DNA of 64,000 bases from Leptolyngbya sp. FACHB-60 (GTDB lineage: Bacteria > Cyanobacteriota > Cyanobacteriia > Phormidesmidales > Phormidesmidaceae). The position numbers and the translations under genes are program-made. Positions within the stretch are counted from its first letter, which is position 1; the number at the start of each line of letters is the position of its first letter. Shown in pieces: positions 802 through 9,610 of this stretch. The DNA is taken from the NCBI RefSeq assembly GCF_014695775.1, contig NZ_JACJOX010000050.1, positions 124,001-188,000 of the forward strand, given 5' to 3'. The notes under the pieces were generated by a model. That model worked only from the letters and a program-made list of their open reading frames with translations, was not told where the DNA came from and did not search any database.

Positions 802-1761
802 ATGAGCAACCTCCAGTTTGACGATGTTTCGCTACGGTTTGCTGGGGGTGCCCGCCCGGCGGTGAACCGGGTGACTTGCCAGGTCAACTCGGGCGAAATT
901 GTGGTGATTTTGGGGCCGTCAGGCTGCGGCAAAACCACGCTGCTCAAGATGGTTAACCGCCTCTATGAACCCACCGCAGGCAACATCTTTCTGGATGGGG
1001 TGAATATTCGCCAGCTCAAGGCGACTAAGCTGCGGCAGCAGATCGGCTACGTGATTCAGCAGTCGGGTCTGTTTCCCCACATGACGGTGGCCGACAATGT
1101 GGCGGTGGTGCCCAAACTGCTGGGCTGGCCCAAACCCCAGATTCAGGCCCGCATTGACGAGCTGCTTGACCTGGTGAAGCTATCGCCAGGGGAATTTCGC
1201 GATCGCTACCCCGCTCAGCTTTCTGGCGGGCAGCAACAGCGGGTGGGCATTGCCCGAGCCCTGGCCGGCAACCCCGCCATTATGCTAATGGATGAACCAT
1301 TTGGGGCGATCGACGCGATCACGCGCACGGCTTTGCAGGACGAGATTTTGCGCCTTCAGGGCCAGCTCAAAAAGACGATTCTGTTTGTCTCCCACGATGT
1401 GGAAGAGGCTCTGCGCCTGGCCGATCGCATTCTAATCATGCGCCTAGGCGAAGTGGTGCAGTTTGACACCCCCTTTAACCTGTTGACTCGGCCCGCCGAT
1501 GAGTTTGTACACACCCTGCTGGGGGCCGACGACATGGTGCGCCAGCTGGGTCTACTGCGGGTAAGTTCGGCCATGATGGCGCTGCCGCCCAACTACAGCA
1601 ACGGCCACAACCCCACCCTTTCCCACCTAGATAGCCTGCGGGATGCGCTGTCGCTGATTCTCAAGACCGGGGCACCAGCTCTCACCGTGCTAAAAGAGGG
1701 CAACCCGGTGGGTCTGCTCACCCTCGACCACATTCGCGAGTCGGCGGTGAACGGGCGATGA
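802..1761 (+). CDS. Osmoprotectant ABC transporter ATP-binding protein (OpuCA/ProV-like)
   Basis: This 319-residue protein would power uptake of betaine-type solutes at the cytoplasmic membrane. Visible motifs are Walker A GPSGCGKTT (~residues 38-46), the Q-loop, signature LSGGQQQR (~140-147), Walker B IMLMDEP (~159-165) and the switch histidine in FVSHD. The last ~100 residues form a shortened regulatory tail; typical ProV/OpuCA proteins carry two complete CBS repeats there, whereas this one seems to hold about one. The stop codon overlaps the start of the permease by 4 bp (ATGA), showing translational coupling. Confidence 0.93.
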   Translation: MSNLQFDDVSLRFAGGARPAVNRVTCQVNSGEIVVILGPSGCGKTTLLKMVNRLYEPTAGNIFLDGVNIRQLKATKLRQQIGYVIQQSGLFPHMTVADNVAVVPKLLGWPKPQIQARIDELLDLVKLSPGEFRDRYPAQLSGGQQQRVGIARALAGNPAIMLMDEPFGAIDAITRTALQDEILRLQGQLKKTILFVSHDVEEALRLADRILIMRLGEVVQFDTPFNLLTRPADEFVHTLLGADDMVRQLGLLRVSSAMMALPPNYSNGHNPTLSHLDSLRDALSLILKTGAPALTVLKEGNPVGLLTLDHIRESAVNGR

Positions 1762-2390
1762 GCTACCTGCTGAGCAACCCCGGCGACGTGCTGACCCTGC
1801 TGCTGCAACACCTGCGGATGACGGGGATTGCGCTGGGGATTGCGATCGCCCTCGCCGTTCCCCTTGCTCTGCTGGTCTCGCGCCTGCGCTGGCTGGCGGT
1901 GCCTGTGCTCGGCGGGCTAGGGGTGCTCTATACCATTCCCAGCCTGGCGCTGATTATCTTTTTGGTGCCGCTGTTTGGCCTCAATGCCACGTCGGTCATT
2001 GTGGCGATGGTGCTCTATACCCAGGTGATTTTGGTGCGCAACCTGACGGTGGGGCTGGCGGGCATTAACCCGGCGGTGCTAGAGGCGGCGCGGGGTATGG
2101 GTATGAGCGTGGCTCAGCGCTGGTGGCGGGTGCAAGTGCCGTTGGTGCTGCCGGTATTTTTGGCTGGGGTAAGAATTGCGGCGATTGTGGCCATTGCGAT
2201 CGCCACCATTGGAGCCAAATTTAACGCGGGCGGACTGGGCAAGCTGTTGTTCGATGGCATCCAAACCAATCGCTATGACAAAATTGTGGCGGGTGCGATC
2301 GCAGTGGCAGCCCTAGCGCTGGTGATCAACGGGCTGCTGCTGGCCCTAGAGCACTACACCCAACCCCAACGACGGTTGAAACATGAGTAA
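1758..2390 (+). CDS. Osmoprotectant ABC transporter permease (OpuCB/ProW-like)
   Basis: This 210-residue membrane protein has about six hydrophobic segments. The cytoplasmic EAA-type loop (EAARGMGMSVAQRWWRVQVPLVLP, quoted from residue ~110 only in part: EAARGMGM...PLVLP) contacts the ATPase. It overlaps the ATPase gene by 4 bp, so they are one operon. A second permease of the same family is encoded convergently at 3763-4416; OpuC-type systems commonly use two permeases, so the two probably form one heterodimeric pore. Confidence 0.92.
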   Translation: MSYLLSNPGDVLTLLLQHLRMTGIALGIAIALAVPLALLVSRLRWLAVPVLGGLGVLYTIPSLALIIFLVPLFGLNATSVIVAMVLYTQVILVRNLTVGLAGINPAVLEAARGMGMSVAQRWWRVQVPLVLPVFLAGVRIAAIVAIAIATIGAKFNAGGLGKLLFDGIQTNRYDKIVAGAIAVAALALVINGLLLALEHYTQPQRRLKHE

Positions 2391-2415
2391 GACAGCAGTT
2401 ACGGCTTAGTTACTA

Positions 2416-2451
2416 TCCGTATAATCCACCCTGAAAAGGCAATTATACGGA
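2416..2451 (+). terminator. Hairpin after the OpuCB-like permease
   Basis: Perfect 10-bp arms TCCGTATAAT / ATTATACGGA are separated by a 16-base loop, 25 bases after the permease stop. There is no U-tract, so it may be a factor-dependent terminator or mRNA end stabiliser. It could also mark the edge of the AT-rich insert that follows. Confidence 0.4.
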
Positions 2452-2599
2452 AACTGTCGGCTAATAAGTTTTATACGCACACTTCAAGCAAACATATGAA
2501 ATCATGACGAAACATCCTAAAAACGAAGAAATTAACGGAAACCAGAGAAATACTGTTGTAATAGGAAAACAGTAGATTCAACTTTTCAAAGAATTATTT

Positions 2600-3553
2600 A
2601 TGGATCGAAATGTAGATTCCGCAAAATATCGGAGCGGTTTTCAAAAATGGGTATTGAGATTAGTTGCCCCAAGCACAGTTTTTATGGCAGTAATCTTAAT
2701 CATGACAATTGGCATTCCAACTGCATGGGATATTTTTAAACATTGGAATGATATTGAAGCCAAAGCAAGGGCACAAGCTGGAATTACATTGCTACAAACA
2801 ATAGTCACCACAATAGGCGGCATAGCCATTTTTGGAAATATTGTTATAGCTCGTAGGCAGGTGGCAGCAACCCAGCAGCAAATGGTCATCACTCAAGAAC
2901 AAATCATTACGGATAGATTTTCCAAAGCAGTAGAGCAACTAGGAAGTGATCAATTAGCTGTTCGAGTAGGAGCAATTTATTCTTTAGAGAGAATTGCTAA
3001 AGATTCCATTAGAGATCATTGGACAGTGATGGAAGTATTATCATTTTTTATTCAAGATAGATGCCCTCTACGAAACGGTGATGAGGTTTCACAAAAAAAC
3101 GATGCCTTTAAAGATGTGCAAGCTGCTGTGATTGTTTTAGGAAGGCGCGATTTAAGTCAAGATCCAAAAGTCAATAATCTAGACCTGACCTATATAGAGC
3201 TTCGCTGGGTTTCTTTTGAAGAAGGAGACTTTAGAAACGCTGTTTTCTATCGCTCAAATCTCAACGGGATTAACTTTTACAAAGCAAATTTGGAGAAAGC
3301 TAACTTTTGGCAGGCAAATCTCACACGTGCAAAGTTGTTTGGAGCCGATCTAAGTCAAGCTGATCTAATAGAGACAACTTTTAGTGAGGCGGACTTAAGA
3401 AAATGCAATTTAAGAGGAGCTAAAATTAGTAGAGCTAATTTTAGCAAAGCCAAAGGTTTGACTGTGGAACAGATACAGTCAGCACAAAAATGGGAAGAAG
3501 CTGTTTACGACGAGAGTTTTCGGGTGCAATTGGGTTTAAATGTTAATAAGTAG
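2600..3553 (+). CDS. Membrane-anchored pentapeptide-repeat protein, probable captured cassette gene
   Basis: This 317-residue protein has two N-terminal membrane segments (~residues 20-42 and 62-84). A helical linker follows with a FSKAVEQLGSDQLAVRVGAIYSLERIA-type region (start FSKAVEQLG, end YSLERIA) known from many cyanobacterial pentapeptide proteins. From ~205 to 285 comes a run of A(D/N)LxxA pentapeptides that should fold as a right-handed beta-helix. Function is unknown. Base composition is clearly AT-rich against GC-rich neighbours and codon use differs, suggesting transfer. It separates two permease genes of one transporter and is followed by an attC-like hairpin. Confidence 0.9.
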   Translation: MDRNVDSAKYRSGFQKWVLRLVAPSTVFMAVILIMTIGIPTAWDIFKHWNDIEAKARAQAGITLLQTIVTTIGGIAIFGNIVIARRQVAATQQQMVITQEQIITDRFSKAVEQLGSDQLAVRVGAIYSLERIAKDSIRDHWTVMEVLSFFIQDRCPLRNGDEVSQKNDAFKDVQAAVIVLGRRDLSQDPKVNNLDLTYIELRWVSFEEGDFRNAVFYRSNLNGINFYKANLEKANFWQANLTRAKLFGADLSQADLIETTFSEADLRKCNLRGAKISRANFSKAKGLTVEQIQSAQKWEEAVYDESFRVQLGLNVNK

Positions 3554-3588
3554 AAAAATTTTGTACAACGCTTAGTTAAGCGATCTGC

Positions 3589-3674
3589 GTCTAACAACTG
3601 TGGTGCAGCGGACTGTTGCAAGCCGGTGGTGGTGTGGTAAAAGTTATTAGCAGCCGCTGACCACAAACTTATGC
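3589..3674 (+). other. Degenerate integron attC-like recombination site
   Basis: The site starts GTCTAAC (matches R'' RYYYAAC), then TGTGGTGCAGCGG pairs with CCGCTGACCACA 42 bases later with one extrahelical base, as in attC L''/L' arms. It ends CTTATGC where the consensus R' would be GTTRRRY, so two positions are off. It lies 35 bases after the AT-rich pentapeptide gene, where the attC of a gene cassette belongs. No integrase gene is in the window. The reading is inference from pattern. Confidence 0.5.
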
Positions 3675-3762
3675 ATTCGCTGCGGGTCTAGTTGTGTGAC
3701 CAAATAAAGTTATCTAAGCAGAACTTGCCTAGGGCTACTGAATTCAGAACACTAAGTTAACC

Positions 3763-4416
3763 CTAAGCCGATCGCACCCCCGGCGGCTGCGCGGCGCGCT
3801 GCACTGCGCTCAACCCCACCTCCGCCAGCAGCGCCAGCAGCGCCACCGGCACCGCCCCCACCAGCAAAATCGCCGGGTCGTAGGCGGCAAAGCCGAGCAC
3901 AATAAACGCGCCCAACCCACCCGCTCCCACAAACGCCGCCAGCGTAGCGCTAGCGATCACCTCCACCGTGGCGGTTTTGATGCCCGCAATCACCACCGGC
4001 AGCGCTAGAGGAATCTCGACCGTTTTGAGAATGTCGACAGGGGGCATTCCCATACCCGTCGCCGCCTCACGAATGGCGGGGCTAATGGTGCGAAAGGCCA
4101 CGTCAGTGCTGATGAGAATGGGCGGCATCACCAGCAGCGTCAGAGCCAGCACCGCCGACCAAAAGCTCAGCCCCAGCACGGGCACTGCCAAAAACAGCAC
4201 CGCCAGGCTAGGAATCACCCGCAGGGCATTGAAGCTGTTGAGCATGACCGTGGAGATGAGTCGCGATCGCGCACTCCACAACCCCAGCGGCAGCCCCACC
4301 AGTAGCCCGATCGCCAGAGGCACCGCTACCAGCAGCAGGTGCTGTTGCAGGGCGGTGAGGATGCGATCGCTGTTATCCAGCGCGTACTGATAGGCATTTT
4401 GCAGAGTAGACGGCAT
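3763..4416 (-). CDS. Osmoprotectant ABC transporter permease (OpuCD/ProW-like)
   Basis: About 217 residues with six hydrophobic stretches and a permease loop (REAATGMGM...EIPLALP). An in-frame TTG start lies at 4431, but the ATG at 4416 gives the usual MPSTLQ-type N-terminus and is preferred. It is on the strand opposite to its presumed partners (ATPase 802-1761, permease 1758-2390) and stands tail-to-tail with them. This suggests an inversion or insertion in this locus. Directly upstream lies a PIN toxin gene, 23 bases away. Confidence 0.88.
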   Translation of the reverse strand: MPSTLQNAYQYALDNSDRILTALQQHLLLVAVPLAIGLLVGLPLGLWSARSRLISTVMLNSFNALRVIPSLAVLFLAVPVLGLSFWSAVLALTLLVMPPILISTDVAFRTISPAIREAATGMGMPPVDILKTVEIPLALPVVIAGIKTATVEVIASATLAAFVGAGGLGAFIVLGFAAYDPAILLVGAVPVALLALLAEVGLSAVQRAAQPPGVRSA

Positions 4417-4439
4417 AGGATAATCTTGCAAAAAACGGC

Positions 4440-4820
4440 TTAATCCTCAAAAGGATTCGCTAGCCTTAGGGCTTCAATTTTTGAGAAGTCTGCTGTGTTA
4501 CGGGTAATTAGCTCTAAAGAATATTCCAGAGCAGTTGCAGCGATAATAGCATCAGGTACTTTGATCTTAAAATGCTTCCGCAACTGAATAGTTCGCTCAG
4601 CAATCTCTGATGTTAGAGGTAGCTCGACCAAGCCCGACAAAAGCTGTTTTGCCCGAGCCTCTTCCAGCTCAGATTGCTGAAAGCCTAACACTTCGATTCT
4701 AGAAATAACTGAGTAAGCGCCTTGTCCTATCAGGCCTAGTCTCAGGAGATTCTCGCCAGATTCATTGAGCTGGTTGTTGAAGTGATAAATAAAAATATTG
4801 GTATCAAAAATTAGCTGCAC
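4440..4820 (-). CDS. PIN-domain ribonuclease toxin (VapC-like)
   Basis: This 126-residue single PIN domain has the acidic residues expected to bind catalytic metal: D6 (in FDTNIF), E43 (in ISRIEV), D90 (in VPDAIIAATAL) and D111 (in TADFSKI). VapC toxins cleave specific RNAs and are neutralised by a co-expressed antitoxin. The small gene immediately upstream (4832-5092) is the likely antitoxin. The active site looks intact, so the module may be functional. Confidence 0.88.
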   Translation of the reverse strand: MQLIFDTNIFIYHFNNQLNESGENLLRLGLIGQGAYSVISRIEVLGFQQSELEEARAKQLLSGLVELPLTSEIAERTIQLRKHFKIKVPDAIIAATALEYSLELITRNTADFSKIEALRLANPFED

Positions 4821-4831
4821 CAGATCAATAC

Positions 4832-5092
4832 CTAATCACCCCAGCTTAATTTTCTTTGTCGTTCTATCTCTGCATCAATTTCTTCAACACTTGATTGCCC
4901 CCAGCTCCCTCTAGTTTCGTCCAACAATTTATTAATTTCTGAGGAATCCGCTAAGTCTTGAGCCTCTGCTGAATTTTTAAGCGAGCTTGTACGCGCATGA
5001 AGCTGACTCACCAAATAGCTGAGCAAAGTCCACTGTTCTTCTGAACTGAGCTGGGTTAGCTCACTCATCACTCGCTGTAATGATGGGCTCAT
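4832..5092 (-). CDS. Putative antitoxin of the PIN toxin
   Basis: This 86-residue, acidic, helical protein sits 11 bases upstream of the PIN toxin on the same strand, the usual antitoxin-first order. The N-terminus (LTQLSSEEQWTLLSYL) resembles small cyanobacterial antitoxin-like proteins found beside PIN genes. The C-terminal part is charged and probably disordered until it wraps the toxin. No clear DNA-binding fold can be named. The call rests mostly on size and position. Confidence 0.72.
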   Translation of the reverse strand: MSPSLQRVMSELTQLSSEEQWTLLSYLVSQLHARTSSLKNSAEAQDLADSSEINKLLDETRGSWGQSSVEEIDAEIERQRKLSWGD

Positions 5093-5149
5093 GGCTAGCC
5101 TTCTTGTTGTGGCAATGTGCTTACCTTAGATTCTAAGCTCGTAGCAGCT

Positions 5150-6217
5150 TTAAGTTGTCAGGCGCTGCTCGGTATCGCCGTCGAACCAGTGAATCGACTC
5201 GGGTGGCAACGCCAGTTTCAAATTTTCCCTGCTCCAGGCGGCATCGGCGGGTAGCAGCGCCCGCAGAGTCAGGGTGGGGTCGCCCTGCACCCGCAGGCTC
5301 ACCAGATCATGCATGCCCAGATTTTCTACTAAAAACACCTGTCCGCTGACGGTGTGGGCATCGCCCTCGCGGGGCAGCCGCAGATGCTCAGGGCGAATGC
5401 CCAGCACCACGGAGGCAGCCTGGACGCCAATGGGCAGCGGTATGCTGAAATCGCCCAGAACCACAGTGTTTCCGGTGCGGCTGAGGGTAATCAGGTTCAT
5501 CTGAGGGCTGCCGATAAAGCTGGCGACAAATCGATTGGCTGGGGTTTTGTAGATGTCGTGGGGATGGCCCAGCTGCTGCAAATAGCCATTGTTGAGCACC
5601 GCCACCTTGGTCGAAAGGGTCATGGCCTCGGTCTGGTCGTGGGTGACGTAGACAATGGGTGATTTTTGGTCGGCGAAAATCTGCTTGAGGTCGGCCCGCA
5701 CCTGCTCGCGCAGCAGAGCATCGAGGTTACTCAGGGGTTCGTCGAGCAAAAACACGTCGGGGTTGCGCACCAGGGCGCGGGCCAAAGCCACCCGCTGGCG
5801 CTGACCGCCCGAGAGCTTAGCGGGTTTGCGATCGAGCAGCGGATCGAGGCCCAGCACCCCAGAGACTTCCTGCACCCGCTTTTGAATATCGCCGGCCGGC
5901 AGATGGCGCAACTTCAGCCCCGAAGCCACGTTGTCGCGCACCGTCATGTGGGGATAGAGAGCGTAGCTCTGAAAGACCATGGCGATGTTGCGATCGCCCG
6001 GCGGCAGAGGGCTAACATCGCGATCGCCGATCATCACCTGCCCCTCCGTGGGCTGATCTAACCCCGCAATTAGCCTAAGAATGGTCGATTTACCACAGCC
6101 CGATGGCCCTACCAGGGTTAGAAACTCGTTGTCTTCCACCACCAGATTGAGCTGCTTTACCGGCACAATGTCGCGGCTGTAGGCTTTGGCAAGGTTTTGG
6201 AGTTCAAGTTTAGCCAT
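5150..6217 (-). CDS. ggtA: Sugar/compatible-solute ABC transporter ATP-binding protein (GgtA/MalK/UgpC-like)
   Basis: About 355 residues. Walker A GPSGCGKST, signature LSGGQRQR, Walker B VFLLDEP and switch VTHDQ are present, followed by a C-terminal TOBE/MalK regulatory domain with the VLGIRPEHL motif. The ATG at 6217 (MAKLELQNLAK) is chosen: the upstream open frame to 6313 only translates a low-complexity proline-rich repeat. It lies downstream of two permeases and a binding protein on the same strand, completing a GgtBCDA-type system for glucosylglycerol, sucrose or trehalose. The symbol is by family and context; substrate is unproven. Confidence 0.9.
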   Translation of the reverse strand: MAKLELQNLAKAYSRDIVPVKQLNLVVEDNEFLTLVGPSGCGKSTILRLIAGLDQPTEGQVMIGDRDVSPLPPGDRNIAMVFQSYALYPHMTVRDNVASGLKLRHLPAGDIQKRVQEVSGVLGLDPLLDRKPAKLSGGQRQRVALARALVRNPDVFLLDEPLSNLDALLREQVRADLKQIFADQKSPIVYVTHDQTEAMTLSTKVAVLNNGYLQQLGHPHDIYKTPANRFVASFIGSPQMNLITLSRTGNTVVLGDFSIPLPIGVQAASVVLGIRPEHLRLPREGDAHTVSGQVFLVENLGMHDLVSLRVQGDPTLTLRALLPADAAWSRENLKLALPPESIHWFDGDTEQRLTT

Positions 6218-8269: not shown

Positions 8270-9610
8270 TTAACCCTCTACCCCCAACACCCGCCGACTC
8301 TCACCCGCAGCGGCCCGCATAGCGGCTTCAGCCGTCATTTGGTCACTGATAGCCGCGCTCAAGTAGCGTTGCAGAATGTCTGAAACCTGGGCGTATTGAC
8401 CCACGGGAGGGCGAGGCACCGCCGTTTCTGCCACCTCTAACAGCTGCTCATAGTGAGGAAACGACGCCAGCACGTCTGGATCGGTGAACAAAGCGCGCCG
8501 GCTGGGCACATAGGCAAATTCGGTGATGAAATCCTTCATCGGCCCAGGACTGGTGAAAAATTCCACCACCCGCCAGGCTTCCTCGGGGTGGGGAGTAGTC
8601 GACGAAATTCCAAAGCCCCAGCCCCCTAAGCAAGCCGCGGGCTGCTGGCCTGGGGCATGCACCATGGGCTTGAGGGCAATTTTTCCGGCGACCGGAGTGC
8701 CTTCGCGGTTGGCCTCGGCCCAGGCATAGGGCCAGTTTCGCAGAAAGGCCACATTGCCGTTTTGGAACTGGCGGAGAGAGTCTTCCTCGACGTAGTTGGT
8801 CACACCAGGGGGAGAAATACGTTGGTCAATCAAACCCTTCATAAACTCAACGGCCTGAACCCCAGCGGGCTGATCTAAGCCCACTTCTAGGGTGGTCGGG
8901 TCGATCCAAAAACCGCCGTAGCCGGCGATGATTTCGACAAAGTTGGTGACCAGGCCCTCGTACTGCAAGCCCTGCCACGTAAAGCCCCAGTCCACGTCGG
9001 TCTGCGCTTGGATGGCCTTAGCGGCGGTAGTCAAATCGTCAAAAGTCTCGGGGGGTTCTAGCCCGACCTGGTCGAGCAGATCGGTGCGGTAGTAAAGCAT
9101 GCCCATGTCGGAGCGAAACGGCATGCGGTAGAGGCCTCCTTGATAAAGGCCAGCGGCCACGTCGGCCGACAAAAAGTCGGATAGGTCGGCTTCACCAACG
9201 CGATCGGACAGATCTATTAGCCACCCGGCAGCAGCAAATTTAGGAATCCAAACGACATCCGAGAAGAGAATGTCGTAGGGGGAGTCGCCCAACAAAAAGG
9301 ACGTGGTGTAAAGGTTTTCGACGGCATCAGCGGCGTTGGGGCCGCGCACCATTTGAATGCGAATATCGGGGTTTTCGGCCATAAACTGCTCGGCCAAGCC
9401 CTGCATTTGGTCGGCTTCCACCGCTCGCAGCAGAAAGGAGATGGTGACCGGCTGCTGCGACCAGACATGGGCACCAACTAATATGGTGGTGGCGATCGCA
9501 ACCAACGCCAATAAAAATCTGCTGAAACGCACTCGACTGCGCCTCAGAAAGGGGAACCGGTATTCACGCAAAATTAAAGCCCGGAGATCGAACAATTCCC
9601 GGGCTACCAA
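8270..9610 (-). CDS. ggtB: Sugar/glucosylglycerol ABC transporter substrate-binding protein (GgtB-like)
   Basis: An extracellular solute-binding family 1 protein: cluster-B fold with the EAWRVVEFFTSPGPMKDF-type C-terminal region. The frame opens with TTG at 9610, but a GTG at 9532 preceded by a GAGG motif would give a cleaner signal peptide (RFSRFLLALVAIATTIL then WSQQ), so the true protein may be ~420 residues. It heads the ggtBCDA-like operon and would deliver solute to the permease pair. Glucosylglycerol/sucrose/trehalose is the family-based expectation, not shown here. Confidence 0.87.
   Translation of the reverse strand: MVARELFDLRALILREYRFPFLRRSRVRFSRFLLALVAIATTILVGAHVWSQQPVTISFLLRAVEADQMQGLAEQFMAENPDIRIQMVRGPNAADAVENLYTTSFLLGDSPYDILFSDVVWIPKFAAAGWLIDLSDRVGEADLSDFLSADVAAGLYQGGLYRMPFRSDMGMLYYRTDLLDQVGLEPPETFDDLTTAAKAIQAQTDVDWGFTWQGLQYEGLVTNFVEIIAGYGGFWIDPTTLEVGLDQPAGVQAVEFMKGLIDQRISPPGVTNYVEEDSLRQFQNGNVAFLRNWPYAWAEANREGTPVAGKIALKPMVHAPGQQPAACLGGWGFGISSTTPHPEEAWRVVEFFTSPGPMKDFITEFAYVPSRRALFTDPDVLASFPHYEQLLEVAETAVPRPPVGQYAQVSDILQRYLSAAISDQMTAEAAMRAAAGESRRVLGVEG

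Follow-up and report, generated by a model that had tools for sequence, protein, structure and literature searches.

A probable integrase-less integron remnant, seated at an attI-derived site between two permease genes of Leptolyngbya sp. FACHB-60

We analysed a stretch of 64,000 nucleotides from the genome of Leptolyngbya sp. FACHB-60 (the window). Between two of its permease genes lies a locus that is, in our judgement, quite probably the remnant of an integron without integrase. It would consist of an attI site, one cassette and the attC site of this cassette, and its orphan attI would have been served in trans. The features of the locus are as follows, in window positions:

1758-2390, forward strand: permA, the left flanking gene, an ABC transporter permease (Pfam BPD_transp_1, E 2e-17)
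2411-2468, forward strand: putative remnant attI without integrase, made of a last palindromic unit (CCGTATAA...TTATACGG, 2417-2450) and the core AAACTGTCGGCTAATAAG
2469-3668, forward strand: integron cassette, a foreign insert of 38.5% GC, delimited by the edges of conservation, the different inserts in relatives and GC content
2600-3553, forward strand: the cassette gene, encoding a 317-aa pentapeptide-repeat protein with hydrophobic N-terminal stretches (Pfam PF00805, E 3.4e-32)
3589-3674, forward strand: degenerate attC-type site of 86 bases, recognised by the covariance model R1 and by the covariation of its family
3669-3762, no strand: conserved right flank of the platform (TTATGCATTCGC...), where the BLAST match restarts at 3669 in G018, G004, G011, and G022
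3763-4431, reverse strand: permB, the right flanking gene, an ABC transporter permease (Pfam BPD_transp_1, E 6e-20)

The two permease genes are convergent and on opposite strands, so no operon is interrupted by the cassette, and the claim in a preliminary description of this DNA that it breaks the operon of one transporter has to be abandoned. The same description correctly placed the insert between two permease genes, both of which match BPD_transp_1, but the foreign DNA covers approximately 2469-3668 rather than the whole interval 2391-3762. Conservation with relatives, as seen by BLAST, ends at 2470 on the left and resumes on the right at 3669, which is the expected crossover point of the attC. 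Orthologues or homologues of permA are found in 37 of the 57 relatives, and about 45 bp preceding the right flank are retained in relatives and deleted in the window copy. The GC content of the insert is well below that of the window (38.5% vs 56.3%), as is the GC3 of the cassette gene relative to that of its neighbours (0.30 vs 0.73-0.76). The lowest-GC 1-kb bins of the window overlap the ORF at 2600-3553, its most AT-rich stretch. Together with the PF00805 match, these values agree with the initial reading of an AT-rich pentapeptide gene of foreign composition.

The best homologue of the 317-aa protein is 59% identical to it. The protein matched none of the known defence families, the promoter and terminator scans of the cassette returned hits at chance level only, and a search of plasmids gave only a distant pentapeptide gene. 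The pentapeptide gene could have been one of those typical of cassettes, but we rejected this idea: an attC lies near just one of 29 homologue loci, on the opposite strand. On the other side of permB, between it and the next ABC gene, positions 4431-5150 hold a gene for a PIN-domain toxin, with a small ORF resembling an antitoxin gene upstream of it. This pair is present in G004 (90%) and absent from the same place in G018, G011, G008, and G012; it is a second polymorphic insertion, adjoining permB.

The attC-type site begins 36 bases past the stop codon of the cassette gene. Its R'' box GTCTAAC (3589-3595) fits RYYYAAC, and its two 12-pair arms, TGTGGT-G-CAGCGG (3599-3611) and CCGCTG-ACCACA (3654-3665), leave a single extrahelical G (3605). 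The geometry noticed at first, a RYYYAAC box with paired arms and an extrahelical base, is thus that of an attC. The R' box CTTATGC (3668-3674) departs from GTTRRRY with its crossover G^TT, the G being deleted in the alignment to the model. We therefore filed the site as degenerate and attC-derived. Since the site does not stand out by its minimum free energy (folding is only slightly better than in shuffles, with z -1.2 and -1.1), we tested it by homology. A pattern for the inner arms, GCAGCGGACN{16,46}CCGCTGA, has approximately 80 matches in the 57 relatives, compared with 6 for the reversed control. Once aligned, the sites of this family show YTAACAA at the left, covarying outer arms, and CGTTAGGC at the right. 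The two-sided covariation of the arms in the 29-site family amounts to 62 cells, against 28 in shuffles, and sliding the partner abolishes the signal.

We built the covariance model R1 from 29 family sites, none of which came from the window's genome. The lack of any attC score had been named at the outset as grounds for dropping the integron reading, and a search for further copies of the motif had been proposed. The model gives the window site 71.7 bits (E 6e-15 per genome) and makes it the sole match within the 64 kb, with about 34 matches in the genome as a whole, in addition to those of the pattern in relatives. Within the genus it recovers sites in 25 of 26 genomes, and it hits arrays beside intI in G012, G018, G041, G017, G152, and others. 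Family sites thus adjoin integron integrase genes in relatives, and we therefore regard the family as attC sites. Judged by its sequence, 3589-3674 is homologous to the attC sites of intI-bearing integrons. For the attC sites of cyanobacteria a taxon-specific model exists already (Ghaly et al. 2021, PMC8352920). A search of the region against Rfam gave only sub-threshold chance matches.

These results make it barely credible that the locus has nothing to do with integrons, that is, that an AT-rich, horizontally acquired gene is simply followed by a hairpin terminator or a repeat element. Such an account would accommodate the unexceptional folding energy, and pentapeptide genes are common in cyanobacteria, where most lie outside cassettes. 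However, it is at odds with the E value of the covariance model, with the covariation of boxes and arms, with the IntI genes beside family sites, and with the coincidence between the boundary of the insert and the core site.

The window's genome has no match above the NCBIfam IntI cut-off, which is exceeded in 123 of the 388 cyanobacterial genomes, including members of the genus. At the locus itself there is neither an intI adjoining the attI, as in a complete integron, nor a remnant of one. Instead, we find an attC, the only one in 64 kb, with no integrase nearby, as in CALIN and SALIN elements. The early proposal of an integron-type cassette without integrase is therefore sustained, both by the attC homology and by the absence of IntI above the cut-off from the genome. 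An intI stub (the first 25 codons, 88%, E 8e-9) heads the C19 array of the same genome. Contig 19 carries, at 106,900-138,021 (L012, L241), an attC array of about 31 kb without integrase, with approximately 18 sites, almost all on one strand. In the genus, the intI beside the same attI is intact in G018 and G019, frameshifted in G008, internally deleted in G020, reduced to scraps in G013, G002, and G010, and gone elsewhere.

The preliminary description missed the left boundary of the insert. The block at approximately 2411-2468 is, by homology, the end of an attI site. It is 92% identical to the attI of G020 at the same locus, and 36 nt of it match at 91.7% the sequence adjoining the intact intI of G018. 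In the latter genome the block TTATACGGAAACTGTCGGCATAATAAGTTG sits between intI and the first cassette, and a diverged form of it does so in G019. Both genomes therefore show what defines an attI: intI and the first cassette are separated by this same sequence, and the crossover is G^TTRRRY. In two congeners the core AAACTGTCGGCATAATAAGTTG^TTRRRY has an intact intI for a neighbour, and at about 15 further loci the neighbouring intI is decayed or absent. The window copy has lost its crossover G and another base of the core; in G004 and G025 we found the core degenerate or did not recognise it. We compared the 19 attI loci outside the permease spot and found a mean pairwise identity of 0.75 in the 20 bases that precede G^TT, 0.62 within TTRRRY, and 0.30 from the seventh base after the crossover. 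The core at these loci is, on this profile, a fixed site followed by differing sequences. Between one and three palindromic units, each about 42 bp long, stand upstream of the core; the window retains one (2417-2450), and this palindrome is absent from shuffles of the window. We ruled out that it is the terminator of permA, as the same palindrome is the repeating unit of the attI. The attI of this integron type (L142, 7142-7300; window, 2417-2450) has such palindromes in an array spaced at about 42 bp, and either half of a palindrome resembles an integrase core box. An attI of this kind might also have spread within a cassette, by way of its own GTTATAC boxes.

Our first reading of the lone cassette was a secondary-site insertion. 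A circular cassette would have been captured off-target by an integrase, at a secondary site (attG, G^WT) that happened to lie between two genes, which would make the locus a SALIN. The presence of a single cassette and the absence of intI fit this account, and off-target insertions are known (Loot et al. 2024, cited in PMC12690207; mechanism (i) for CALINs in PMC8618304). Yet the left flank is a homologue of an attI that adjoins genuine intI genes and recurs at about 19 further loci, and at least eight other genomes make use of this very spot. The attI match led us to discard this first reading; it appears largely to refute off-target capture, which we regard as very improbable. The lone captured cassette of the preliminary description, with an attC and no integrase, is thus retained, with the addition that it is seated at a remnant attI and not at a random place.

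Other integrase-less attI copies were found in this genome and its relatives, and several of them have an attC-type site downstream. A second attI-like core, likewise lacking an integrase, lies on contig 9 of the window's genome (L242, approximately 8738-8777), upstream of a 337-aa ORF; no attC was found there. The orphan attI at L244, L245, L246, L247, and L250, from four species, share several hundred upstream bases, including a short ORF (MFEYLEPDA...) that points away. Part of this shared stretch is also found beside the intI remnant of G020 (L233), which suggests a clean loss of intI.

We then turn to the permA-permB spot in relatives, which were sampled as one assembly per species, some of them draft. 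The spot holds other cassettes in at least eight other Nodosilinea genomes, and no intI was found there in any of them. It is occupied in G018 by a gene for a 258-aa protein of no Pfam family and a PIN toxin/antitoxin pair. G008 and G011 have the same last cassette, with a LanC-like gene that is 94.6% identical, and different first cassettes. G012, G022, and G020 have yet other cassettes, and Nodosilinea sp. LEGE 06152 has 4.6 kb of sequence with two attC. Sites of the attC type were identified at the spot in G012, G018, G020, G004, G022, G008, and LEGE 06152. The occupant in G004 (L092) is a 345-aa ORF, which matches the candidate defence family PDC-S54 over its C-terminal half (E 5e-76). Two genomes of the same genus, G007 and G017, have an unrelated phosphatase-like gene at the spot, with neither attI nor attC. 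The empty site, which had been suggested as a point of comparison, is seen in other genera, where the permease genes nearly touch (gaps of 8 bp in L278 and 60 bp in L281). Relatives carrying the same gene without the hairpin, which had been put forward as an argument against a cassette, were not what we encountered: they carry other cassettes at the spot. The junction between permA and attI is homologous across the species carrying the attI, with no room for intI and no trace of it. Species differ in their first cassette, whose junction with the attI falls precisely on G^TT, except in the window copy, which has lost the G.

This diversity could also have arisen by decay in situ, with no action in trans. 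A full integron with a long array would have stood between permA and permB, intI would have been lost once, and ordinary deletions would have left different cassettes in different species. The stepwise loss of intI beside attI at other loci of the genus, the existence of long arrays, exemplified by C19, and the last cassette shared by G008 and G011 are in line with this scenario. Nevertheless, we find it unlikely. It does not account for a permA-attI junction that is homologous in all species and leaves neither room nor trace for intI, and ordinary deletion is not expected to produce differing first cassettes that abut the attI exactly at G^TT. Different contents could come from a long ancestral array that was shortened in its own way in each species, but the precise attI junctions would still need IntI.

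We thus favour an integrase-less remnant whose orphan attI was served in trans. As the permA-attI junction is homologous and has no space for intI, the docking site would have been integrase-less already in the ancestor; as exact attI junctions require IntI, be it for insertion or for excision, we infer an integrase acting in trans. An attI fragment would have been placed behind permA in the ancestor of part of the genus, without an integrase gene. An IntI encoded elsewhere in the cell, of the type of the intact gene of G018, would then have inserted and removed cassettes here in trans, recombining the folded bottom strand of the attC at the G^TT of the attI. G018 retains an intact intI, and the attI core beside it is nearly identical to the orphan type. 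More broadly, several orphan attI per chromosome may be loaded in trans by a distant IntI at places that are fixed across Nodosilinea species, forming a distributed integron, a generalisation towards which we lean only slightly.

Neither end of the window's cassette (2468-2469 and 3668-3669) has its crossover G, which means two independent losses, as read from one assembly. Because both are missing, this copy is probably dead. With the integrases gone from the genome as well, the cassette is probably immobile, and would be fixed and act solely through its gene.

Integrons are described as one integrase and one attI in cis. If our interpretation is true, several docking places in a chromosome can share a single integrase, and integrase-less cassettes gain a concrete origin. 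G018, with an intact integrase and an orphan attI, makes the idea of action in trans directly testable. Integrons and attC sites are known in cyanobacteria (PMC8352920 and PMC8618304). Clusters of attC without integrase are known as well, and their proposed origins are off-target insertion, loss of intI, and rearrangement (PMC8618304); a single integrase-less attC is called a SALIN (PMC12690207). Outside class 1, attI sites have received little description; the standard program does not detect them and they are not searched for (PMC9024848), so platforms of this kind would be overlooked. In our partial search of the literature we found no paper that deals with conserved integrase-less attI sites. 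What is new here is an orphan attI that is conserved while its cassettes turn over.

The locus resembles CALIN and SALIN elements in having an attC-type site at the 3' end of a gene and no intI, either nearby or genome-wide. It differs from them in its attI-derived left end and in its place, which is conserved in the genus and holds changing cassettes, whereas CALINs are defined by attC alone. The chromosomal integrons of cyanobacteria (PMC8352920) are close to it in that cyanobacterial attC sites have been given a model of their own as a class and that IntI passes the NCBIfam cut-off in 123 of 388 cyanobacterial genomes; orphan attI sites are not treated in the part of that article available to us. 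Finally, it is similar to insertions at attG secondary sites, as reported by Loot et al. (2024, cited in PMC12690207), in that a cassette lies in the chromosome outside a complete integron; the receiving site is here a homologue of attI and not a chance G^WT site.
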